A stretch of DNA of 64,000 nt from positions 2,666,001 through 2,730,000 of the forward strand of contig NZ_CP082249.1 of assembly GCF_019879105.1 (NCBI RefSeq). The letters are read 5' to 3'. Below the pieces are notes generated by a model, which was not told the origin of the DNA, made no database searches, and was given only the letters and a program-made list of their open reading frames with translations. Position 1 is the stretch's first letter; every line of letters starts with the position of its first letter. The stretch is from Natrinema sp. SYSU A 869 (GTDB taxonomy: Archaea; Halobacteriota; Halobacteria; Halobacteriales; Natrialbaceae). This document shows, in pieces, positions 3,038-47,510 of the stretch. The position numbers and the translations under genes were made by a program.

Positions 3038-4671
3038 ACCCGATAGACGGCGTCAAGCAAAACTGGCGGGTCCTCCTGCTCGTATCGTTTCTCCTCTTCG
3101 CGGTCATCGCGCTGTTCGTCCCCGGTGGCATCGTCGCCGACGACAGTGTCGCGAACGAGAGCGTCGACAGCGGCCCGACCAACCTCGAGTTCGGTCTCAG
3201 CCTCGATGGCGGTACCCGGATCAGAGCCCCCGTCGTCGGGATGACCGCCGAAGACATCGAAACCGGCGCGGTCAGCGACAGCGGACAGGTCGACGGGGAC
3301 CGCATCGGAGAAATCGAGTCGACGTTGTACGAGGAACTCGATCTCGATACGGCGGACGCCAGAGTCACCGTCCACGACGACGGGAGCGTCACTGCCGAAG
3401 TCTTCACCGACAACGTGACGCAAGCGGAGTTCGCCACGGCGTTGCAGTCGGCGAACGTCGATGCGTCCGAGGACGACATTCGCGACGGCGTCACCGAGCA
3501 GACTCGCAACGAGATGATCGGGACGCTCCAGACGAAGATCAACGAGGCCGGTCTCTCCGGCGGTTCGGTCTACGAGCAGACGACGCGAAGCAACAACTAC
3601 ATCGTCGTCGAAGTTCCCAACATGGACTCCGAGGAGCTTCGTTCACTGCTCTCCGAGCGCGGGGTCGTCGAAGTCGTCGCTTACTACCCGGACGAAAACG
3701 GGACGCAGACGAACGAGACGGTGTTGACCCAAGACCAACTTGCCAACGTCGACTCGCCCCGGCAGCCACAGGGGCCACAAGGGAGATCCCAGGGGTACAT
3801 GGTCCCCATACAGGTGAGCGAGGAGGCCGCACCCGAGTTCCAGCGACAGATGGAAGAGTACGGCTTCCTCGATGAGGGGTATACGTCACAGGGCGCGTGT
3901 AACCTCCCCGAAGAGAACGGAAACATCAGATTCGACCACGAGGGACAACAGTACTGCCTGTTGACGGTCTCGGACGGTGAGGTCGTCGACGCCCACTCGA
4001 TGGGGAGCCTCGCCGACGGGATGATCGCCGGCACCTGGGTTAACGATCCGACCTTCCAGATGGGTGCACCGAGCCAACAGGAGGCACAGTCGCTTTCGGT
4101 CAACCTCCGGGCCGGGAGTCTGCGTGCGCCGCTCGACCTGAGCCCCGAGAGCGCCCAGGTCTACTCGATCACGCCGAGCCACGCCGACCAGTTCAAGCAG
4201 TACTCGCTGCTGATCGGACTGCTCTCGGTGGTCACCGTCAGCGGCGTCGTCTACGCCCGATACACGGACACGCGCATCGCCCTCCCGATGATCGTCACGG
4301 CGCTGTCGGAGGTCGTGATCCTGCTCGGGTTTGCGGCGCTGATACGCATGCCGTTGGATCTCTCCCACGTCGCCGGGTTCATCGCCGTCGTCGGGACCGG
4401 GGTCGACGACCTCGTGATAATCGCCGACGAGGTGTTGGACGAAGGCGATGTCAGTTCGGAACGGGTCTTCCAGTCACGGTTCCGGAAGGCGTTCTGGGTC
4501 ATCGGTGCCGCCGCGGCGACGACAATCGTCGCCCTCTCGCCGCTCGCGGTCCTGAGCCTCGGGGATCTGAAGGGCTTCGCCATCATCACCATCCTCGGCG
4601 TGCTTATCGGAGTGCTCATCACCCGACCCGCGTACGGTGACATCCTGCGACGGCTGCTGACCGACCGCTAA
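3034..4671 (+). CDS. secD: protein-export membrane protein SecD
   Basis: Works with SecF in protein export at the cytoplasmic membrane. The 545 residues contain a first membrane span (about 11-30), the SecD motif FGLSLDGGTRIRAPV, a long extracytoplasmic P1-type domain, and a C-terminal RND-like block of five spans with VVGTGVDDLVIIADEVLDEG, the counterpart of the GxxVDxxI motif used in proton or sodium transfer. The order secF then secD, reversed from bacteria, is usual for haloarchaea. Length is normal for the archaeal family and no frame damage is visible. Confidence 0.96.
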   Translation: MNPIDGVKQNWRVLLLVSFLLFAVIALFVPGGIVADDSVANESVDSGPTNLEFGLSLDGGTRIRAPVVGMTAEDIETGAVSDSGQVDGDRIGEIESTLYEELDLDTADARVTVHDDGSVTAEVFTDNVTQAEFATALQSANVDASEDDIRDGVTEQTRNEMIGTLQTKINEAGLSGGSVYEQTTRSNNYIVVEVPNMDSEELRSLLSERGVVEVVAYYPDENGTQTNETVLTQDQLANVDSPRQPQGPQGRSQGYMVPIQVSEEAAPEFQRQMEEYGFLDEGYTSQGACNLPEENGNIRFDHEGQQYCLLTVSDGEVVDAHSMGSLADGMIAGTWVNDPTFQMGAPSQQEAQSLSVNLRAGSLRAPLDLSPESAQVYSITPSHADQFKQYSLLIGLLSVVTVSGVVYARYTDTRIALPMIVTALSEVVILLGFAALIRMPLDLSHVAGFIAVVGTGVDDLVIIADEVLDEGDVSSERVFQSRFRKAFWVIGAAAATTIVALSPLAVLSLGDLKGFAIITILGVLIGVLITRPAYGDILRRLLTDR

Positions 4672-4734
4672 CGCGTCTCGATTCCCGCTTTATCCGCTCT
4701 TTCAGCCCGAACCTTTCTACCCGACTGAGCCGTG

Positions 4735-4842
4735 TTAGTGCGTATTGCGACACCGTGGACACCAGTCGACGGTTCCGTCTTCACCGTAAGCGCGTGCGAA
4801 ATCGTACGAAACGGGGTTTTCACAGGTCGTACAGACCGGCAT
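4735..4842 (-). CDS. 35-residue zinc-finger mini-protein (DUF7563-like)
   Basis: A very short protein, MPVCTTCENPVSYDFARAYG followed by a CPRC knuckle near its end. Two CxxC pairs separated by about 20 residues form a rubredoxin-type zinc-binding knuckle pair. The central DFARAYG resembles the YARVF segment of the haloarchaeal DUF7563 mini-proteins, another member of which lies at 24628-24786. Start at 4842 removes an unlikely N-terminal extension. Function unknown; such proteins are abundant in haloarchaea and some act in regulation, which is family background, not evidence here. Confidence 0.7.
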   Translation of the reverse strand: MPVCTTCENPVSYDFARAYGEDGTVDWCPRCRNTH

Positions 4843-5073
4843 ATAATCACCATCGTAACGCACTGGGAGGACGGCCAATAACCGCCAGCCTGCAATTGCA
4901 ACCGGTGCTCGAGGACCGACTCGCTTCAAATACACGCGGTGCTATCGCGTGCTCGAGAACGATCGCAGAACCGTCACTGTCGACCCGTGGGTCAAGACAG
5001 AACCAAAGGACATAGCGGTCTCTGCCGCGACAACTGTCCGACAGGGGACGATGACCGACGCGAGACAGGGCTG

Positions 5074-5961
5074 TTACAGATCGCGCTGGAACTCGTCGAA
5101 GACCTCGAGGTCGTCGGGGAGGTCGTATGCGAGGTGACGCTGTTCCTGCCGGTTGGTACCGGCGTCGTCGATCGGTGTGGCGACGTCTTCCCAGCCGGGT
5201 TTGATCTTGACGCTTTTCGCTGGCATCCCGATCGCGATGTGGTGGGCGGGGATGTCGTTTTGGACGATGCCGCGCGCGCCGACGATGGCGTTTTCGCCGA
5301 CCTTGCAGCCGGCGCGGACCATCGCGTCGTAGGTGAGCCGGACGTCGTCCTCAACGATGGTGTGGTAGTTGCGGACCTCGGTCTGGTCGACGACATCGTG
5401 GTCGTGACTGTAGACGTGGACGCCGTCGGAGATCGAGACGCGGTCGCCGATCGTGAGTTTCCCGCGATCGTCAAGGTGGACGTCGTCGTGGACGACCGTG
5501 TTGTCCCCGATCGTGATGTTGTGGCCGTAGGTAAACGAGATGCCCTTGAAGAAGCGACAGTTATCGCCACACTCCTCGAAGAGGTGGTCGGCGAGCATCC
5601 GTCGGAACCGCAGGGCGAACTCGATGTTGTCCGCGAGCGGCAGGCTGTCGAACTGTCGCCAGAGCCACTGGAGGTGTTTCGAACGACGGAACTGCTCCTC
5701 GTCTTTCTCAGCGTAGTACTCGCTCTCGAGGGTCGTGTTACAGGGATCGTAGCTCTGTAGGCGGACGCGCTCGGCCGGTGAGACCGACTCGCCGTTCTGC
5801 CAGCGCTCATAGGCGTCGCGGTCACCCGAGAGATCGATCAGGACGTCCTCGACGACCGAGCAGGTGTCCTCGTCGCTCGAGAGTCGTCGATCGACCTCGT
5901 CGATGAACTTGCGCATCCCCGCTTCCGCCTCCTCGGGGAGCGACACGTACCGCTTTGTCAT
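5074..5961 (-). CDS. hexapeptide-repeat (left-handed beta-helix) acyltransferase
   Basis: Probably transfers an acetyl or acyl group to a sugar or similar small acceptor in the cytoplasm. The 295-residue protein begins MTKRYVSLPEEAEAGMRKF; residues from about 140 to 250 carry LbH hexapeptide turns, for example ITIGDNTVVHDDVHLDDRG and LTIGDRVSISDGVHVYSHDHDV, followed by MVRAGCKVGENAIVGARGIV. The His pair in YSHDHD resembles the catalytic region of maltose/galactoside O-acetyltransferases. The N-terminal 130 residues include a Mac-like segment. Only 127 bases upstream is the end of an insertion sequence, which may have replaced its promoter or separated it from the co-directional gene at 7045-7275. 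Confidence 0.85.
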   Translation of the reverse strand: MTKRYVSLPEEAEAGMRKFIDEVDRRLSSDEDTCSVVEDVLIDLSGDRDAYERWQNGESVSPAERVRLQSYDPCNTTLESEYYAEKDEEQFRRSKHLQWLWRQFDSLPLADNIEFALRFRRMLADHLFEECGDNCRFFKGISFTYGHNITIGDNTVVHDDVHLDDRGKLTIGDRVSISDGVHVYSHDHDVVDQTEVRNYHTIVEDDVRLTYDAMVRAGCKVGENAIVGARGIVQNDIPAHHIAIGMPAKSVKIKPGWEDVATPIDDAGTNRQEQRHLAYDLPDDLEVFDEFQRDL

Positions 5962-6088
5962 ACCCCGAGGTATTGCCCGCCGAGTTGATAGGGGTTCGGT
6001 TGTGCGTTCCCGGTTGCCGGACCCACTGGCATGAGGGTTACCTGGTCGGTCCGGCCGACCGATTCCGGGCATACAGCGCTGTCCCTTG

Positions 6089-6096
6089 CTCCTGGG
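6089..6096. repeat. left target-site duplication of the IS (ctcctggg)
   Basis: The octamer ctcctggg immediately left of the IS is repeated exactly at 7037-7044 immediately right of it. This is direct evidence of transposition into a single octamer. Confidence 0.92.
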
Positions 6097-7036
6097 GGCT
6101 CTGTTGAATCGCTGTAAGGCGGTAGATTTCACTGTTTGACGGCACGTTTGATGTTGTAGACGACACACATCAGAGAAATTTCACGGAACTCTCGATACCA
6201 GCTACGCGCTCGCACGGCGTAGCCGAGCGAGCGCTTGACGGCTGAGTTGACGGTTTCGGCCATTGACCGCTGAGCGTACCGATCTTCATCAATGCGGGCG
6301 TTGTGTGCGTGATCGTACGGAGCGAAGATCCGGTGTTTGATCAGCGGGCGAATGTCGAGTTCACGGAGTCGTTCGCGGAGTTGTTGCTTGTCATAGCCCT
6401 TATCAGCGGCTAGAGACCGCAGATCGCCCGCGTTCCGGCGGGCGATCTGCTCACAGAGATCTGCGTCGCTGCCTTCTAACGTCGTCGAGCAGTGAAGATC
6501 AAGCACAGCTTGCGTTGCTGTATCGACGAGTTTGGTTACTTTGAGCGTCTGAACGCGATAATTCGTTCGTTGACAGTAGTGACGGCTTGCACGATCTCGT
6601 TCATAGAACGTAGCGTCGATCGCAGCGTGCTCAGAGAGGTCGTGTAGCTGCGCCGACTGGCACAGCAACACTCGACAAACGCTCATCTCGATCCGATCAA
6701 ACGCCTTACACAGCGTAGATGGTGCGGGGAGATCGGCCGTATCAAGGCCGATCTCCCCTGTTATTTGCGGCATTTCCTTCAGCAGATCGATCGTCATTCG
6801 ATAGGACGTATCGAGGTAAATCCGCAGACAATGCAGGGAAACGAGGGCATAGTCGGTGAATCCGCCGCCACCTTTCGGGGCGGCGGATTCGTCTCCATCG
6901 CCAGTAACGTTTTGAGCAATCGGCACAACTGCCCCAATGAAGCGGGAGATTTGGGTCATGAACAACTGAAGTCTCCCGCTTCAAGACCTTCGATTTAGCG
7001 AACCATTCCGCCGCTGTCTAGTGATTCAACACAGCC
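6097..7036 (-). mobile_element. complete IS5-family insertion sequence (ISH1-group-like), 940 bp
   Basis: The element is bounded by imperfect terminal inverted repeats: left ggctctgttgaatc (6097-6110) and right, read inward, ggctgtgttgaatc (7023-7036), 13 of 14 matching. An 8-bp duplication flanks it. One transposase fills almost all of it. Eight-base duplications are typical of the ISH1 subgroup of IS5 in haloarchaea; the subgroup call is inference. It lies between the 3' end of the gene at 7045-7275 and the 5' side of the acyltransferase, both transcribed leftward, so it interrupts what could have been one transcription unit. Confidence 0.93.
6129..6965 (-). CDS. IS5-family DDE transposase
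   Basis: A 278-residue transposase of the DDE type. The likely catalytic residues are Asp117 in AIDATF, Asp188 in AADKGYD and Glu237 in SMAETVNSAVKRS; the last matches the Y-(2)-R-(3)-E-type C-terminal signature region of IS4/IS5 relatives. The frame is intact and the element has both ends, so it may still be active. A start at the third codon (MTQISRF) is equally possible. It is the only transposase in the window. Confidence 0.92.
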   Translation of the reverse strand: MFMTQISRFIGAVVPIAQNVTGDGDESAAPKGGGGFTDYALVSLHCLRIYLDTSYRMTIDLLKEMPQITGEIGLDTADLPAPSTLCKAFDRIEMSVCRVLLCQSAQLHDLSEHAAIDATFYERDRASRHYCQRTNYRVQTLKVTKLVDTATQAVLDLHCSTTLEGSDADLCEQIARRNAGDLRSLAADKGYDKQQLRERLRELDIRPLIKHRIFAPYDHAHNARIDEDRYAQRSMAETVNSAVKRSLGYAVRARSWYREFREISLMCVVYNIKRAVKQ

Positions 7037-7044
7037 CTCCTGGG
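7037..7044. repeat. right target-site duplication of the IS (ctcctggg)
   Basis: Exact copy of 6089-6096. It abuts the TGA of the neighbouring membrane-protein gene (7045-7047), so the insertion left that reading frame whole. Confidence 0.92.
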
Positions 7045-7275
7045 TCACTTCTGGTCGGACTCCCAACTCGAGAGAATTAGCGCTGGCAATGCGAGCGCGC
7101 CGACCACCAGCAACCCACCGCCCACGACCGCGCCGACCGTGACGCGGTCCCCGGGAATCTCGAGAAACCGTGCGATGAAGAGTCCGAGCGGGACGAGAGC
7201 GAGGAGGATCGCCAGTAGGAGCCAGCGGGAACGCCGGGTCCGAGTGCGGGAGTCGTCCATATCCGCATTTGTCAA
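7045..7275 (-). CDS. small two-span membrane protein
   Basis: A 76-residue protein with a basic N-terminus (RTRTRRSRW) followed by two hydrophobic segments, about residues 18-38 and 46-68 (VTVGAVVGGGLLVVGALALPAL). The inside-positive pattern suggests that both ends are cytoplasmic. I do not recognise a family. The start may be the ATG at 7275 or the one five codons later (MDDSRTRT). The IS begins directly after its stop codon, so its native terminator or downstream partner has been displaced. Confidence 0.6.
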   Translation of the reverse strand: MTNADMDDSRTRTRRSRWLLLAILLALVPLGLFIARFLEIPGDRVTVGAVVGGGLLVVGALALPALILSSWESDQK

Positions 7276-7384
7276 CCGCGGGGCAAGAAGGGTTCGACTC
7301 GAGAGACCGGTGTCCCGAATCCGTTCGGATCAGCCGCTCGAGCGTTCCGTTCACCATAAGTTCCCCCGCTACGAAGAGTTGAAC

Positions 7385-8491
7385 ATGCAACACAGCGAAC
7401 TCGGCGACTCCGGAGTCGAGGTCAGCGAAGTCGGTTTCGGCGCGTGGACCGTCGGCACCGACTGGTGGGGCGACCGCTCGGACGACGACGCGATCGAGAT
7501 GCTGCAGTACGCCGTCGAGCAGGGGATCACCTACGTCGACACGGGCGACGTCTACGGTCACGGCAACAGCGAGGAACTGGTCGGGCGGGCGCTCGCCGAG
7601 GTCCGCGACGAGGTCACCATCGCGACGAAGGTCGGCTACGACTTCTATGACAATCCCCAGGCCGGCCACGGCGAACTCCCCAAGGAGATGGATCCGGAGT
7701 ACCTTCGAGACGCCGTCCACAAGAGTCTCGACCGCCTCGGCATCGACTCCGTCGACGTGCTCCAACTCCACAACGCGGACGTCGACGAGATCACGCCCGA
7801 CGTGCTCGAACTGCTCGACGAACTCGAGGAGGAGGGCCTGATCGAGGCCACCGGCCTCGCGCTCGGTCCCTCGATCGGCTGGCTCGCGGAGGGCGATCTA
7901 GCGATCGAAGAGGAGTTCGATTCCGTCCAACTCGTCTGGAACATGCTCGAGCAGGAGGTCGGCGACCACTTCCTCGAGACGATCGAGCGAACGGGCTCAT
8001 CGACGAGTCTGATCCCGCGTGTCCCTCACTCCTCGGGGATCCTCAACGAGCAGGTCACTCCCGAGACCGAACTCGGTGAGGGCGACCACCGCGGCTTCCG
8101 CCCCGAGGAATGGTACGAGACCGGCTGGGAGAAACTCGAGAAACTGCGATTCCTCGAGCGCGCGGAGCGTGGCTCCGCGGCTAACTCGAGCGAGCAGGGC
8201 TCGCGAGAGCACGACGGCGAACGAACGATGAGCCAGGCGTCGATCGCGTGGCTCCTCAGTCACGAGCCGGTCGCGACCGTGACGCCGACCTTCCGTACCA
8301 AAGACGACATCGACGAGTGGGCGGCCGCCAGCGACGTGCCGAAGCTCACCGACGAGGAGATGGGCCGCGTCGCGGAGCTGTACGAGAACGATTTTGACAT
8401 CGACCGCGACGACGGAATGGACTCGCTGCGCTCGTCGGTCGACGGCGCGGACATCAAGTCGGCCGGCCTAGACAAGCTCGCAGCCGACTAA
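7385..8491 (+). CDS. aldo/keto reductase family oxidoreductase
   Basis: NAD(P)H-dependent oxidoreductase with a TIM-barrel fold. The 368 residues start MQHSELGDSGVEVSEVGFGA and show GITYVDTGDVYGHGNSEELVGRAL, carrying the catalytic Asp and Tyr, then ATKVGYDF with the Lys, and the family strand DSVDVLQLHN. The C-terminal part has a long loop rich in Glu before SQASIAWLLSHEPVATVTP, the coenzyme-binding region. The ATG at 7385 gives the normal start; the frame is open further upstream but that sequence overlaps the opposite gene. Substrate cannot be read from sequence. Confidence 0.92.
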   Translation: MQHSELGDSGVEVSEVGFGAWTVGTDWWGDRSDDDAIEMLQYAVEQGITYVDTGDVYGHGNSEELVGRALAEVRDEVTIATKVGYDFYDNPQAGHGELPKEMDPEYLRDAVHKSLDRLGIDSVDVLQLHNADVDEITPDVLELLDELEEEGLIEATGLALGPSIGWLAEGDLAIEEEFDSVQLVWNMLEQEVGDHFLETIERTGSSTSLIPRVPHSSGILNEQVTPETELGEGDHRGFRPEEWYETGWEKLEKLRFLERAERGSAANSSEQGSREHDGERTMSQASIAWLLSHEPVATVTPTFRTKDDIDEWAAASDVPKLTDEEMGRVAELYENDFDIDRDDGMDSLRSSVDGADIKSAGLDKLAAD

Positions 8492-40663: not shown

Positions 40664-40765
40664 GTTCAGACTCCACAGTATAATAGTATGTGGGTGAGTC
40701 TCGACCGACAGCTATCGACACACGTCCCCGATCAGTTTCGCACTGCTTTTGAGTCTCGGGTGGGT

Positions 40766-41773
40766 ATGTTCCCTCGAATGATCTCGAAGGGCTGTGAGCA
40801 GTGCGCGAAAGGTGGCAAGATGGTGCTGTTCGTCTACGGCTACTGCGACCAGCGCGACTGCTTTTACTGCCCGCTCGGCGAGAACCGCAAGAACGTCACT
40901 GACGTCTACGCCAACGAACGACTCGTCGAGAGCGACGAGGACGTGCTCACCGAGGCCCACCGAATGGACGCACTGGGCACATCGATTACCGGCGGCGAAC
41001 CCCAGGAGGCCCTCGACCGGACCTGTCACTACCTCGAGTTACTCAAAGACGAGTTCGGCGAGGATCACCACACACACCTCTATACCGGCATCACCGGCGG
41101 CCGCGAGAACATGCGCCGCCTCTCGGAGGCCGGCCTCGATGAGATTCGCTTCCACCCACCCTACGAACAATGGGGTGACCTCCACGGTACCGAGTGGGAG
41201 GAAATCCTCTATATCGCCCGCGAAGAGGGACTGACGCCCGCCTTCGAAATACCTGGTATCCGCGCCGAAGAAGAGTTCCTCGAGCTGATCGACGAGGGAG
41301 CCGCCGAGTTCTGTAACGTCAACGAGTTCGAGATGAGCGACGGCAACTACCGCCGGATGCAAGAACAGGGGTACGAACTCAAAGAGGACCACATGAGCGC
41401 CGTCGACGGCTCCCGCGAGGAGATCCTCGACGTGATGGGCGACCACGAGAAGGTCTACTTCTGTACCTCCGTGTTCAAGGACGCGGCCCAGCACCGCCGC
41501 CGTCTCAAACGCATGGCGCGAAACATCCGCCGCGAGTTCGACGATGTCACCGACGACGGCACGCTCGTCTACGGCAAGACCCGCGCCAACCCTGAGGAGT
41601 TCGAAGCCCTCGGTGTCCCCGAGGAATTCTACACCGTCAAAACTGACCACGTCGAGGTTGCCTGGTGGCTCTTAGAGGAGATGATCGAGGACGGCGACCT
41701 CAAAGAGGGCGAAATCGTCGAGCAGTATCCGACCTACGACGGGCAGGTCGTCGAGCGGACGCCGTTGGCGTAA
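40766..41773 (+). CDS. radical SAM protein (COG2108-like) with a CX4CX2C motif
   Basis: A 335-residue enzyme related to pyruvate-formate-lyase activases. The cluster motif is FVYGYCDQRDCFYCPLGENR, with Cys27, Cys32 and Cys35, i.e. CX4CX2C rather than the canonical CX3CX2C. It is preceded by KGCEQCAKGGKMVLF (Cys10, Cys13). SITGGEPQEALDRT is the SAM-binding GGEP motif, and HTHLYTGITGG and RFHPPYEQWG follow the COG2108 pattern. Start 40766 or 40778. Function unknown. A T-run at 41807-41811 may end transcription. Confidence 0.88.
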   Translation: MFPRMISKGCEQCAKGGKMVLFVYGYCDQRDCFYCPLGENRKNVTDVYANERLVESDEDVLTEAHRMDALGTSITGGEPQEALDRTCHYLELLKDEFGEDHHTHLYTGITGGRENMRRLSEAGLDEIRFHPPYEQWGDLHGTEWEEILYIAREEGLTPAFEIPGIRAEEEFLELIDEGAAEFCNVNEFEMSDGNYRRMQEQGYELKEDHMSAVDGSREEILDVMGDHEKVYFCTSVFKDAAQHRRRLKRMARNIRREFDDVTDDGTLVYGKTRANPEEFEALGVPEEFYTVKTDHVEVAWWLLEEMIEDGDLKEGEIVEQYPTYDGQVVERTPLA

Positions 41774-42203: not shown

Positions 42204-42991
42204 ATGCAATTCCGAACTATCGCTGTCGTCGCGGTCGCACTGCTTGTGGCGCTCTCCGGGTGTAGCGCCCTCGGGGGATCACAAGCGGATGAACCGTCGA
42301 GCGAAGGTGATACAGAGTCGCTGAATGAGAACGAAACGGGAGCGAACGAATCCGACAATGGGAAAACCGATCCCGATGACGCCGCCGGCTCGAACGGAAC
42401 CGAGGACGATGCGAACACTGACGATGGAGGTGCGAACACTGACGACGGAGACGACACCGCGAACGCGGAGTGGACTCCACCGGAGGAACCGAACCGGAAA
42501 GATGATGGGGGCTGGAAGACAAGCGCGAAGATCGGATCGAATCCGTCGAGTTCGTCGACAGAGAGCCCGCAGAGAGCGGCGAGGGATACTCGAACTTCAA
42601 CCTCGAGGTCGTCGCCAACACGAGTATGGAAAACGTTGATCCACCGGAACACGGTGACGTCATCGGTGAGCCGTACTTCTTCGTCAAGATCAACGAAGAC
42701 AAACAGAAGCTGATCGAGCGCACGGGAGAAGTCCGAATGGAAGAAAACGGCACGTACCATATCGATGTCCGCCCTGATGGAATCGAAGAGTTCGGGGCCG
42801 GTCCGCTGACCGTCGAGGTCTTCCTGATGGATGAGGACAAGGACTGGGACGACATCTACGACTCCGTGGGCAAGACCGTCGAGTACAATCCGGAGACGGA
42901 GACCGACAACTCGGCTGCTGACGATGGCAATTCTGACGACTCGGCTGTTGACGACGCCGATTCTAACGATTCGGAGACGAGCGAGAACTGA
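42204..42991 (+). pseudogene. secreted lipoprotein, frame broken once
   Basis: Starts MQFRTIAVVAVALLVALSGC with a lipobox (ALSGC), so it is exported and lipid-anchored. A long acidic Asn/Asp/Thr-rich linker with two copies of a NTDDGG unit follows. The first frame is lost after EEPNRKDDGG near 42515. The second frame resumes with EDKREDRIESVEFVDREPAE, SNFNLEVVANTSMENV and goes on to a folded domain ending SETSEN at 42991. One extra G in the GGGGG run at 42516-42520 joins them into 262 residues. Total length is 788 bases, one short of a multiple of three. Family unknown. Confidence 0.7.
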
Positions 42992-43024
42992 GCTTTCAAC
43001 CGACAACACAGCGATTCGAGACGC

Positions 43025-44332
43025 TCAGTTAGTCTCGGTCGGATCGACACCAGGTAGCGTGATGAGGTTCTCCCGGCCGATCCGGAGCTTCTCGATTTCG
43101 TTATCGTCGTCCATTTTCGAGAGCAACTGCGACACCTTTGCGTTCGACCAGCCGGTCTCCGAAACGATGGACGCCTGCTTCATCCGGCCGCCGTTTTGCT
43201 CGAGCAGGCGGAGGACGCGCTCCTCGTCGCTCAACAGTTCGGGGTCAATCTCATCTTCGACCAGCTCATCGAACTCGAGGCGGGTCCCTGCCCTGGAATC
43301 GCCGTCGGCGGCCGAATCGACCGGCGTGGAGGTGACTGCTTCGGAACCTCTGTCTCTGCCGGTCGTGACGGTCTCGCGGTCGTCATCGTCGTCCCCATTG
43401 CGATCGAGTATCGCGGCGATCTCGAGCGACGAAAGTCGGTTGGACGAGACCGGGACGTCGAAATCACGTCGCGTGAGCAGATACGCAGCGCCACCGACGA
43501 TGATCACGAGACCGAGAATGGCAGCGATCAGCCACCCCTCTCCAGCAAAGAGCGGTGAATTCCCACCGGCACCCTTGAGAATCGTGATCTGGAGTCCGTT
43601 CTCACTGAATTCGTGGGGGCCATCCCAGACGAGCGCACCGTTGTCCGTCCCCGTCGGAGCATCAACGAAGCCGTAGTTCGGCGGTGGTTCGATGACGAGG
43701 CGCTGACCGGAACTCAACGCCGGGAACAGTTCCCAGTCATCGGTCTGAAATGAATCGCCGACGTGAATCTGATCACCGTCAACGGTGGCGAAGTTCGTCC
43801 ACGTAAACGTGTACGAAATGATGCCGATCCGATCTGTCTCTCTGTCAGACGTCTGGTCCGCTCCGCTTTCACGGTCCTCGATTCGGTACTCGCCCCACCC
43901 TTCGTTCTCAACAGACATCTCGCGGCCAGTCGACTCTGCCACGAGACCTGCGTACCGTGGGAACAACTGAGGACCGTACGGGGTGTCGTCTCGCTGCTCC
44001 GAAACGACCGCTTCGGCGTACTCGTTGAACGTTTCGACTTCCGTCTCGTTCGTCACACGAAATCGACTCTCGATCGTCCATTCCGCATCCCCGGTTTCGG
44101 TGATTCGAATTCTAATGACCTGCTTGGTGGCGGGTTGCTCGGGCGGCGGCGGAGTGGCCGCGGACGAGACGGCTTGCGACGGCTCGAGTACTGCGGTGGA
44201 AGGCGAGGGCGCTGGCGGGGACCGCTCGACCGTCGTCGGGGATTGTGCCGACGGAGTAGCGGCCACTGCCCCCAGCGTGGTTGTTGCGAGGAGGACCGTG
44301 AGGGCGAGAGTAGCGGCAGTGGACATCCGCAT
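43025..44332 (-). CDS. membrane-tethered winged-helix regulator with secreted sensor domain
   Basis: A 435-residue protein. A signal peptide (MRMSTAATLALTVLLATTTL) and Pro-rich stretch lead to an extracytoplasmic beta-rich domain (residues about 75-250: VIRIRITETGDAEWTIESRF, ISYTFTWTNFATVDGDQIHV, LVIEPPPNYGFVDAPTGTDN). One membrane span follows (GWLIAAILGLVIIVGGAAYL), then a cytoplasmic linker and a C-terminal winged helix (LLEQNGGRMKQASIVSETGW, SNAKVSQLLSKMDDDNEIEK). This is the DUF7343-type one-component design in haloarchaea. It is divergent from the DUF7096-like gene and shares its upstream region. Start 44332 or 44326. Confidence 0.85.
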   Translation of the reverse strand: MRMSTAATLALTVLLATTTLGAVAATPSAQSPTTVERSPPAPSPSTAVLEPSQAVSSAATPPPPEQPATKQVIRIRITETGDAEWTIESRFRVTNETEVETFNEYAEAVVSEQRDDTPYGPQLFPRYAGLVAESTGREMSVENEGWGEYRIEDRESGADQTSDRETDRIGIISYTFTWTNFATVDGDQIHVGDSFQTDDWELFPALSSGQRLVIEPPPNYGFVDAPTGTDNGALVWDGPHEFSENGLQITILKGAGGNSPLFAGEGWLIAAILGLVIIVGGAAYLLTRRDFDVPVSSNRLSSLEIAAILDRNGDDDDDRETVTTGRDRGSEAVTSTPVDSAADGDSRAGTRLEFDELVEDEIDPELLSDEERVLRLLEQNGGRMKQASIVSETGWSNAKVSQLLSKMDDDNEIEKLRIGRENLITLPGVDPTETN

Positions 44333-44495
44333 GCGTACCAACGGGTGGTTTCCCGGGGGAAAAACACTTTCCATCGGAAAATAAAATGTTACTAGCGGTC
44401 GTAAAAGGTTTACTGGGCCGTGAATGGTTCGTTAAAAGCGGTACTTATTTGTTCATTAGGAGACGACCTGTTTTTGTATCAAGAGCCCATACGGT
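44333..44495. promoter_or_regulatory. shared divergent promoter region
   Basis: The 163 bases between the regulator and the secreted protein are AT-richer than average, with gaaaataaaatgttactagc (44378-44397) and gtacttatttgttcattagg (44441-44460) as promoter candidates facing each way. Suits self-regulation by the adjacent winged-helix protein, by inference. Confidence 0.4.
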
Positions 44496-45755
44496 GTGTC
44501 GATGAACAACGCGACCCCCGTCCTTCTCGCGTTGCTTCTCGTCCTTTCCTTGCCTGCGATAACTGTTATCGCGGCAGGGCCAACGGGCGAGAGTAACAGC
44601 GGTGCCGAGACGATTCGCCTGCAAGAGCTTCCCTCCCAAACGACGCCAACGTCAATCAATAACACGACCAACAGGCTCCAGCTCAGCGGCGAAGTCAGAA
44701 GCGAGTACATCGAGTACGGACCGGATCTGGGAATGGCGCTTACGAGCGCGGATGACCAGCTCCGAGTCGATCACGACCAGTATACAATTGTCGACAGCGA
44801 GTTCGACGATGCAACGGACGCGGAACGAGAAGCAATGCTCCAAGCGGCCTATGAGCGGCTTACACAACGGATAACCGAACTCGAGCAACGCGAACGAAAT
44901 GCCACGAGAGCGCACGCAATCGGCGAACGATCGTCGATGGATCTCCTCCAGATACTGCTACGAAATCACAACGAGGCGGAGATGCTGTCCGAAGACCTCG
45001 AGGAACTGGAGAACCGGGCAGATCAGGTTCCGAGATATTCACTGTCGGGCAGCCAGACACATGCCGACCAAAATAGCCAGCCACGTGCCGACCAAAAGAC
45101 GCTCGCCGCCCACCAGACGCCGCTCCGAGCGACCCTCAGCCGGCTGTCCGAACGACCGACGGGTAACGTCTATCACAATATTGTCGTCTCGACTTCACAG
45201 ACTGGCTACAGCGTCTCAATGATGGATGGCAGTCAGTACGTCGTCGAAACGAGCCGATTCGATAACCGCAACGAAACGGCATCGGACCGGTTCGAAGGAA
45301 GCGAAGCATACTATCATATCGCGAATCTCTATCCGTGGGCAAGCGAATCCGGACCGTCATTTCAGGACAACAGTTTCGATGACAACTATTACTGGGCCGA
45401 AATGGGACACGACCACGGTCGCCTCGAGTTCTACTTCGACAGCAGAACGGGCGATGTCTACCGCGAGATCCAGGAGTTATCCGTCTCGTCGCTTCCCACC
45501 GGCGAAAGCGAAACCTGGATCAGCGATGGACTCAAAATGACGACCACTGAGACGGCTGCAAACGGCCCGATGAACGTGACGGTGACCGACTTGGAGACTG
45601 GCGATCCCGTCCAGACGACTATTATGGTCGACGGCGTTGAGGTCGGCGAGACCGGTGAAGACGGATCTCGCTGGATCGCTCAGCCGTTTGGCGGAGTGAG
45701 TATCACAGCGGAAACGGCGTCCGGAGATGTCAACGCGACGATTACGGATACCTGA
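44496..45755 (+). CDS. secreted DUF7096-like haloarchaeal protein
   Basis: A 419-residue exported protein. The signal peptide is MSMNNATPVLLALLLVLSLP followed by AITVIAAGPTGES. A coiled region (residues about 105-165: ATDAEREAMLQAAYERLTQR, ITELEQRERNATRAHAIGER) precedes a beta-rich domain (ASDRFEGSEAYYHIANLYPW) and a C-terminal Ig-like part (MNVTVTDLETGDPVQTTIMV). The whole matches my recollection of the haloarchaeal DUF7096 family. It is divergent from the membrane-tethered regulator and 112 bases upstream of a pilin-like gene, an arrangement I recall as conserved. Start 44496 or 44502. Confidence 0.75.
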   Translation: MSMNNATPVLLALLLVLSLPAITVIAAGPTGESNSGAETIRLQELPSQTTPTSINNTTNRLQLSGEVRSEYIEYGPDLGMALTSADDQLRVDHDQYTIVDSEFDDATDAEREAMLQAAYERLTQRITELEQRERNATRAHAIGERSSMDLLQILLRNHNEAEMLSEDLEELENRADQVPRYSLSGSQTHADQNSQPRADQKTLAAHQTPLRATLSRLSERPTGNVYHNIVVSTSQTGYSVSMMDGSQYVVETSRFDNRNETASDRFEGSEAYYHIANLYPWASESGPSFQDNSFDDNYYWAEMGHDHGRLEFYFDSRTGDVYREIQELSVSSLPTGESETWISDGLKMTTTETAANGPMNVTVTDLETGDPVQTTIMVDGVEVGETGEDGSRWIAQPFGGVSITAETASGDVNATITDT

Positions 45756-45867
45756 CCGCGGGATACCACTGATGGACGGGCGGACTGACAGGCACGCAGA
45801 ACCGGCCGGTGAATATTCGTCGATCGCGACCTGAGATTTTTACGGGAGAGAGCGCCCAAAGCGGGCC

Positions 45868-46377
45868 GTGAACGGAACGGGGGACCGTCGCGGCACGCAG
45901 ACAGCAGTATCGAGAGATGGACGCGCCGTCAGCCCGATCGTCGGTATCGTTCTGTTGCTAGCGCTTACTGTCGCGCTCGGGGCCGTCGTTGCCGTCGGTA
46001 TCGGCGCGTGGTCGCTCGAGTCGTCAGGGCCGACCGCGACCTTCGAGCTCTCGGCTGACGGCGATCGATCGACGGTTGAGATCGAACACGTCGCCGGTGA
46101 GAGCATCGACGTCGAGTCATTATCGGTGACGATCGCGGTAAACGGGCGGGATCTGAGTGCACAACCCCCGGTTCCGTTCGTCGGCGCGAGCGGGTTCGAT
46201 GGTGCGCCGGACGGTCCTTTCAACTCGAGAGCTGATTCGGACTGGACGGCGGGAGAACGGGCCGGTGTTTCGATCGCCGACACCAATACACCGACGCTCG
46301 GGGCCGACGACTCTGTCACCGCAACCCTCGTCGTCGACGGGAAACGGATCGCAGAACTCGAGACGACGGCGACGTGA
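45868..46377 (+). CDS. type IV pilin-like protein (Pilin_N domain)
   Basis: A 169-residue protein with an archaeal type III signal: RDGRAVSPIVGIVLLLALTV ahead of ALGAVVAVGIGAW, the DUF1628/Pilin_N hydrophobic helix after a basic RAVSPI prepilin-peptidase region. The rest is a beta-rich extracellular domain. The start is GTG at 45868. It is probably an adhesion pilin or pseudopilin subunit assembled at the surface. It follows the DUF7096-like gene in the same direction. Confidence 0.88.
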   Translation: MNGTGDRRGTQTAVSRDGRAVSPIVGIVLLLALTVALGAVVAVGIGAWSLESSGPTATFELSADGDRSTVEIEHVAGESIDVESLSVTIAVNGRDLSAQPPVPFVGASGFDGAPDGPFNSRADSDWTAGERAGVSIADTNTPTLGADDSVTATLVVDGKRIAELETTAT

Positions 46378-46397: not shown

Positions 46398-47021
46398 TTA
46401 TTCAGGCGCGCGCCCGATTGTCGTGATGGCGACCTCGGGGTCGTAGGACGGACCCATAAACGCGTGTTTGACGTCTTCGAAGCCGGCGGTTTTGAACATC
46501 TTATCGGCCTCGTACTCGTCGTAAAAGAGCATGATGGAGTTGGCCAGCAGCTGACTGACGACGTTGTCGGGATAGTTCGGGCCGACAACGAGTACCTGCC
46601 CGCCGGGTTTGAGGACGCGCCGGAACTCCCGGAGCGCGAGGATTGGATTGGGCCAGTACTCAATCGAGCCCGACGACCAGACGACGTCGAACGTGTCCGT
46701 CGCGAACGGGAGCCGTTCGGCGTCGCCGCGGTGGAAGTGGACCGGTGGTGCCCGTTTTCCGAACTTCTCGTAGGCCTGTTCGAGTTGGTGTTCGCTCTGA
46801 TCGAAGGCGTACACCTCATCGACGTGCTCGAGCAGTCCCTCGGTCGCGAAGCCGGTCCCACAGCCGACATCGAGGACCGTCATATCGTCCTCGATGTCGA
46901 GCAGGGAGAGGGCCTCGGTGCGCATGTCCTCAGTCCAGATAAAGGGGTTCACCTGGTCGTAGACCCGCGAGAGGTACTTGTAGAACAGTCGAGCGCGGGC
47001 CTTGTTCTCGAGAAGTCCCAT
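46398..47021 (-). CDS. UbiE/MPBQ-type SAM-dependent methyltransferase
   Basis: A class I methyltransferase of 207 residues. Motif I is MTVLDVGCGTGFATEGLLEH, followed by VHFHRGDAERLPFATDTFDV and SSGSIEYWPNPILALREFRR, which together resemble plant MPBQ/MSBQ and UbiE quinone methyltransferases. A role in menaquinone methylation is plausible. I start at MGLLENKARARLFYKYLSRV (47021), as the family does, although the frame is open to 47135. It is divergent from the atp operon. Confidence 0.85.
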   Translation of the reverse strand: MGLLENKARARLFYKYLSRVYDQVNPFIWTEDMRTEALSLLDIEDDMTVLDVGCGTGFATEGLLEHVDEVYAFDQSEHQLEQAYEKFGKRAPPVHFHRGDAERLPFATDTFDVVWSSGSIEYWPNPILALREFRRVLKPGGQVLVVGPNYPDNVVSQLLANSIMLFYDEYEADKMFKTAGFEDVKHAFMGPSYDPEVAITTIGRAPE

Positions 47022-47137
47022 TAGTGACGAGTTTCGGTCCGACCGGCATATGTCTACTGTTCCGGGTCCTTGTCGAGGGAGTAAGAAATTATTATCGGCC
47101 GTTTGGAACCGGTTCGTGCTGAGCCACTTTCGCAACT

Positions 47138-47146
47138 ACCATATAC
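47138..47146 (+). promoter_or_regulatory. TATA-like element of the atp operon
   Basis: The box accatatac stands about 32-40 bases before the ATG at 47178, the only AT-rich piece at archaeal promoter distance from atpH. Confidence 0.4.
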
Positions 47147-47177: not shown

Positions 47178-47510
47178 ATGCCGAGGCCAGAGGTTCTCGA
47201 ACGAATTAAGTCGGCGGAAGAGGAGGCCGACGAGATCGTCGCATTGGCAGAAAACGACCGCGACGAGCGAATAGCCGAGGCCCGGGAACGTGCCGAGGAG
47301 ATTCGCACGGAAGCGGAACAGGAGGCGCAGGAGCTCAGAGAGCGTCGCCTGGAGGAAGCTCGCGAGGAGATCGATGCGGAATGCGAGCAGGTCCTCGAAG
47401 AAGGCGAACAGGAGCGTGAGGAACTCGCCGAGCGCGCCCGGAAACGGGTCGACGACGTGACCGACCACGTCGTCGAACTGTTCCAGGAGGACGTCCATGC
47501 TCAGACCTGA
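47178..47510 (+). CDS. atpH: A-type ATP synthase subunit H
   Basis: A 110-residue, wholly helical coiled-coil protein (MPRPEVLERIKSAEEEADEI onwards) forming the peripheral stalk together with subunit E and attaching to subunit I. Heptad-like runs of Glu/Ala/Arg fill residues 5-100. First gene of the operon; its end overlaps the atpI start by 14 bases. Confidence 0.9.
   Translation: MPRPEVLERIKSAEEEADEIVALAENDRDERIAEARERAEEIRTEAEQEAQELRERRLEEAREEIDAECEQVLEEGEQEREELAERARKRVDDVTDHVVELFQEDVHAQT

Follow-up and report, generated by a model that had tools for sequence, protein, structure and literature searches.

A conserved haloarchaeal surface locus with a membrane-tethered winged-helix regulator, a secreted DUF7096 protein and a pilin-like protein as a candidate one-component signalling module

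Signalling from the cell exterior to genes without two-component kinases is poorly known in archaea. In bacteria, regulators of the ToxR/CadC type consist of an N-terminal winged helix, a transmembrane segment, and a C-terminal domain outside the cell. ArnR and ArnR1 of Sulfolobus acidocaldarius are one-component regulators that are bound to the membrane and control archaella and pili (PMC6396743), and the helix-turn-helix (HTH) of ArnR resides in its N-terminal region (PMC13286277). The locus described here lies in a 64,000-nucleotide stretch of Natrinema sp. SYSU A 869 (contig NZ_CP082249.1, positions 2,666,001 to 2,730,000; hereafter the window), whose 5.67 Mb genome is labelled G000. It encodes a membrane-tethered winged-helix regulator, a divergently transcribed secreted DUF7096 protein, and a type IV pilin-like protein. 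This is a real, uncharacterised, order-wide surface locus, most likely with a signalling role, and we put at roughly 0.55 the probability that the three proteins make up an ancestral one-component module for signalling at the haloarchaeal cell surface. Almost every member of the Halobacteriales sampled has the locus, beside core energy genes, yet its annotation stops at domains of unknown function (DUFs).

The window regulator shares with ArnR and ArnR1 an archaeal, membrane-bound HTH architecture without a kinase domain and a tie to type IV pilus-like structures. Unlike ArnR, with its N-terminal HTH and C-terminal membrane part, it begins with a signal peptide and an ectodomain and carries the HTH at its C-terminus, and genes for a secreted partner and a pilin are adjacent. 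Regulators of the ToxR/CadC type are likewise single-pass membrane transcription factors with the sensor outside and the winged helix inside, but the domain order of the window regulator is reversed, the partner proteins are different, and no sequence relation was found. The nearest described proteins are those of Haloferax volcanii, in which HVO_0306 has been described as a "transmembrane glycoprotein/HTH domain protein" and an O-glycopeptide candidate, and HVO_0307 as a protein that is N-glycosylated at three sites and carries a Sec signal (PMC8241124); both are glycoproteomics entries, without a function or a described pairing. HVO_0309 is menG (PMC8305020), and HVO_0311–0317 comprise the ATP synthase operon (PMC3828320). 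From these published annotations, we infer that H. volcanii has the same gene order; by description and order, the regulator would be the counterpart of HVO_0306 and the DUF7096 protein that of HVO_0307, and the Pfam families of both proteins match in the H. volcanii control genome. No functional paper on HVO_0306 or HVO_0307 was found, literature searches by DUF/Pfam family name and by HVO_0308 returned nothing, and the H. volcanii CsmR paper contains none of the HVO_030x or DUF terms looked for. The locus offers a directly testable archaeal membrane-tethered transcription factor, along with candidates for its extracellular partner and its operator, and Haloferax genetics are good.

The regulator and the DUF7096 protein are clear members of their Pfam families (DUF7345/DUF7343 and DUF7096/DUF7094/Fn3_arc, respectively), above curated cut-offs, and Pfam records no function for these families. 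Both regulator families match in one protein (PF24036 DUF7345, 126 bits against a cut-off of 27.5; PF24034 DUF7343, 108 bits against 27.6). According to the structural model and hydropathy prediction, a signal peptide is followed by the beta-rich DUF7345 domain, one transmembrane helix, a linker of some 70 residues modelled at low confidence, and the C-terminal DUF7343 domain, from which we infer that DUF7345 lies outside the cell and DUF7343 inside. The winged helix resembles MarR/ArsR-type domains (e.g., Z 10.5, 1.1 Å over 59 residues), and its recognition helix is near-invariant (WS[ND]AKVSQLLS). For the DUF7345 ectodomain, Foldseek yielded no convincing structural match; the candidates FMO protein, ribophorin I, and M1/M61 peptidases were weak and inconsistent (TMq 0.12–0.18) and were not used. 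A PDB sequence search gave no significant relatives for the regulator or the DUF7096 protein. The regulator probably starts at 44332 or 44326, and a longer open reading frame (ORF) starting at 44374 receives no support from relatives.

The DUF7096 protein, which starts at 44496 or 44502, contains DUF7096 (PF23379, E = 7e-58), DUF7094 (PF23375, E = 2.5e-28), and Fn3_arc (PF23374, E = 2.5e-22) after its signal peptide, and all three domains are present in 42 of 42 aligned members. Its model (predicted local distance difference test score, pLDDT, 87; predicted template modelling score, pTM, 0.85) comprises long helices at residues 76–173, a beta region, and a C-terminal Fn3 domain. The C-terminal Fn3/MG-like domain is confident, with Z 11.9 against a bacterial alpha-2-macroglobulin domain (1.5 Å over 72 residues). 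The middle part, DUF7094, is weakly similar to the C-terminal domain of YpeB (5boi; Z 7.5, root-mean-square deviation 3.9 over 117 residues, Foldseek probability 0.66), which is at most suggestive of a PepSY fold in the model; PepSY is absent among the families listed in the Pfam scan of DUF7096 proteins. Matches of the model to flavivirus envelope protein and OspA were weak beta-sheet matches and were ignored. A first-pass annotation of the window had proposed that the locus senses the cell surface; the predicted topology and the detection of glycoproteins in H. volcanii make such a role plausible.

The pilin-like protein matches PF07790 (E = 2e-14, 54 bits against a cut-off of 25.2) and TIGR02537 (31.8 against 20), and has the class III signal peptide RAVSPIVG. 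The class III signal peptide and the Pilin_N region are common to it and the haloarchaeal PilA-type pilins of solved structure (8fj5, 8gi2). It differs from these in its constant length of about 150 residues and in its near-invariant motif QPPVPFFSAxGFxxGPTGPFN, and the PDB matches cover the N-terminal part only. The DUF7096 and pilin genes are co-directional, with a median ORF gap of 62 nucleotides, and no further pilus gene is found within the block. A role of the locus in pili is speculative, being drawn from the adjacency of one minor pilin-like gene.

The architecture, the pairing, and the promoter of the locus are conserved. Two sets of loci were compared: 60 loci of ~19.5 kb from 60 genomes of many families, in which genes were located by tblastn and profile searches, and 80 loci in named genomes, picked by the pilin peptide motif alone. 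The conserved order is regulator (−), DUF7096 (+), pilin (+), methyltransferase (−), ahaH (+), and atpI (+). Of 392 genomes of the order, 377 have the DUF7096 protein, usually in one copy. In the 60-locus set, the regulator is present in 57, the pilin in 56, and the methyltransferase in 54 loci; in the pilin-selected set, the DUF7096 gene lies directly upstream in 75/80, a divergent regulator is found in 69 of the 77 loci whose upstream sequence is long enough to judge, and 68/78 have the methyltransferase. The sequence divergence of the regulator and that of the DUF7096 protein are correlated when the methyltransferase is controlled for (partial r 0.56, the highest among the pairs tested). 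Co-occurrence of four genes, including a lipoprotein gene, had been suggested as a check on the locus: the regulator, DUF7096 protein, and pilin occur together order-wide, whereas the lipoprotein is found near only 5 of the 60 loci and in most of the window's genus. Almost confined to that genus, it was rejected as a member of the system.

Pairing of the regulator with a DUF7096-type protein extends to paralogous loci. Further regulator paralogues are present in the window's own genome. A survey of 23 near-complete genomes from several families counted 16 DUF7096 sites away from the main locus; a DUF7345 site lies no more than 1.4 kb from 9 of them, where a rate of about 0.6% per site would be expected (P ~6e-17). 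Since the pairing recurs at paralogous loci, where both divergent and co-directional pairs are found, it looks functional and not positional. In group C, a co-directional regulator is followed by a DUF7096-like gene; this group includes a pair in the window's own genome but outside the window (L131; regulator 6659–7801 (−), DUF7096-like gene 5786–6511 (−); G000:C3, ~2489.8–2491.8 kb), and the same pair is seen in 17 more loci (L166, L171–L185, and L188). Group D (L142, L143, and L165) combines a divergent regulator, a long DUF7096-like gene, and a third, stand-alone DUF7345-like protein (L142 9917–10669, L143 9116–9865, L165 445–1194), which in L142 and L143 ends with a PGF-CTERM-like tail (PGFGLGAA...), which points to a sensor domain that is anchored but lacks a DNA-binding part. 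At L133, an HTH-only DUF7343 protein (166 residues, 6417–6917) adjoins a 599-residue secreted acidic protein (4302–6101), possibly another pair of a regulator and a secreted protein.

The divergent intergenic region (44333–44495), whose 163-base extent had been called correctly, contains two conserved blocks. On the regulator side, GATGGAAAGNGTTTT stops about 26 nucleotides short of the start codon across nearly all of the families examined, and in most of the window's family it is followed by a palindrome (TTTCCC-CC-GGGAAA-like). The conserved position in the regulator promoter suggests an overlap with the core promoter. Among the 24 genomes searched, 15 have exactly one site for the 15-base element, which is the regulator promoter in 14 of them and lies elsewhere in G104; with one site per genome, it was rejected as a wider regulon motif. 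A short coding peptide was also ruled out, as the ATG changes to ATA in several genera and the variation falls off wobble positions. Promoter conservation amounts to 21.7 bits for the regulator versus 22.6 for ahaH, 14.4 for the methyltransferase, 12.6 for DUF7096, and 11.7 for the pilin. The ahaH promoter 15-mer CGCAACTACCATATA (window 47131–47145) is as conserved as the regulator element and, wherever it is present among the genomes searched, occurs a single time; element uniqueness was therefore rejected as proof of autoregulation, and conservation shows a constrained promoter, not which protein regulates it. The recognition-helix signatures of groups A–D are WS[ND]AKVSQLLS, WSKSKVSMLLS, WT[DEA]AKTS[KQ]VV, and WS[AK]SKTSRV[LV]S, respectively, and the groups also differ in their conserved promoter elements, although those of groups B–D come mostly from one family, in which many promoters are conserved. 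Helix and element differing together is what autoregulation would predict, a fit and not a proof. The earlier suggestion of a self-regulated system thus draws on a conserved regulator-promoter element and group-specific helix/element pairs, but falls short of proof against the ahaH control.

In the proposed mechanism, the regulator would sit in the membrane with its DUF7345 domain facing outwards and its DUF7343 winged helix in the cytoplasm, and the secreted DUF7096–DUF7094–Fn3 glycoprotein encoded by the divergent gene would be its dedicated partner. Because the pairing recurs, this protein probably works at the cell surface, as a ligand or co-sensor for DUF7345, which would sense either the DUF7096 protein or something bound to it. 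An altered interaction between the two might change how the winged helix binds the conserved element in the regulator's promoter, between the divergent genes, and this change would set the expression of the regulator and of the DUF7096–pilin pair; the minor pilin could belong to the same surface assembly or be one of its outputs. A broader proposal, possible but held more tentatively, is that haloarchaeal transmembrane one-component systems make up a family whose inner winged helices answer to dedicated, secreted DUF7096-type partners encoded alongside, each paralogue acting on its own promoter element, and the ancestral copy coupling a surface pilin. The core idea of the first-pass annotation is partly supported, with the lipoprotein excluded and a pilus output unproven.

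Several observations weigh against a signalling module. The 18 loci of group B have a solo regulator with no DUF7096 partner, and no pilin of the family seen at the main locus turned up at the paralogous loci examined. The DUF7096 and pilin genes are retained in genomes lacking the regulator (L087, L102, L109, L232, L252, L261, and L264), and both can therefore be kept without it. The pilin has its own promoter-like element, the partial correlations control for shared ancestry with one gene (the methyltransferase) only, and, given that the ahaH control equals the regulator element, core-promoter constraint may explain the conservation of the latter. The solo regulators of group B (e.g., L144 6332–7597 and L146 6511–7803) have their own conserved promoter, with TATTCACAAGNATTTTTAGC in the window's family.

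It is rather unlikely, though worth weighing, that the regulator is an envelope-integrity sensor that answers S-layer, glycosylation, or lipid stress, with the DUF7096 protein titrating the ectodomain and pili not being an output. The secreted glycoprotein partner, the beta-rich ectodomain, and the lack of another pilus gene in the block would all suit such a sensor, but it leaves unexplained a pilin-like gene that is kept in nearly all loci. Somewhat less probable is that the DUF7096 protein and the pilin serve as structural components of an adhesion or pilus-associated assembly at the surface, and that the regulator mainly controls distant genes and shares the divergent promoter incidentally; the co-directional, 62-nucleotide arrangement of the two genes and their persistence after regulator loss in some genomes agree with this, but paralogous DUF7096-like genes pair with regulators and not with pilins. 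Mere positional conservation of functionally unrelated genes in a rarely rearranged region by menG and the V-ATPase operon is improbable, for although the menG and V-ATPase genes are retained about equally, regulator–DUF7096-like pairs recur in different orientations at loci unrelated to V-ATPase, and the trio also occurs at loci (e.g., L123 and L125) with no methyltransferase or V-ATPase gene detected close by.

Table 1. Features of the locus and its surroundings, in window coordinates.
Feature	Position	Strand	Basis or remark
Frameshifted lipoprotein gene	42204–42991	+	Outside the conserved system
Membrane-tethered winged-helix regulator, DUF7345–transmembrane–DUF7343	43025–44332	−	Pfam, model, hydropathy
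DUF7345, predicted extracytoplasmic beta-rich sensor domain	43673–44113	−	PF24036, E = 1.1e-36; beta strands, pLDDT mostly >90
Single transmembrane helix of the regulator	43469–43537	−	Model helix 264–286; hydropathy
DUF7343 winged helix-turn-helix, predicted cytoplasmic and DNA-binding	43052–43237	−	PF24034, E = 1.9e-31; MarR/ArsR-like fold, Z ~10 over 59–63 residues
Regulator promoter element GATGGAAAGNGTTTT, conserved order-wide	44361–44375	−	Promoter conservation, 21.7 bits
Palindrome TTTCCC-CC-GGGAAA, candidate operator	44349–44362	Strand-neutral	Conserved only within the window's family, in most members
Core promoter of the DUF7096 gene, conserved (GACGACC..TTTTTGTATC)	44462–44480	+	Promoter conservation, 12.6 bits
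Secreted DUF7096–DUF7094–Fn3_arc protein, ORF open from 44496	44502–45755	+	Pfam, model
Type IV pilin-like protein, class III signal peptide	45868–46377	+	Pfam, TIGR02537, conserved motif
menG-like methyltransferase, conserved neighbour (landmark)	46398–47021	−	Domain search, synteny

The four genes of the first-pass annotation were each recovered at their positions by ORF and domain analysis (Table 1), and the lipoprotein gene is frame-broken, as had been noted. Its lipobox frame runs from 42204 to a break near 42505–42515, after which the C-terminal half is read in a different frame as far as 42991. The gene is intact and in a single frame in 23 of 29 genus-level loci, and because relatives carry it in one frame, the break is specific to the window genome; the frameshift (window 42490–42520) is either a recent loss or a sequencing error. 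On the other side, the methyltransferase is probably not part of the signalling unit, and the V-ATPase operon begins beyond it at 47178. A gene for a radical SAM protein (window 40721–41773) is found near the locus in 32 of the 60 genomes, with 75–96% identity among relatives; outside the window's family, it lies in the opposite orientation and more distant from the locus.

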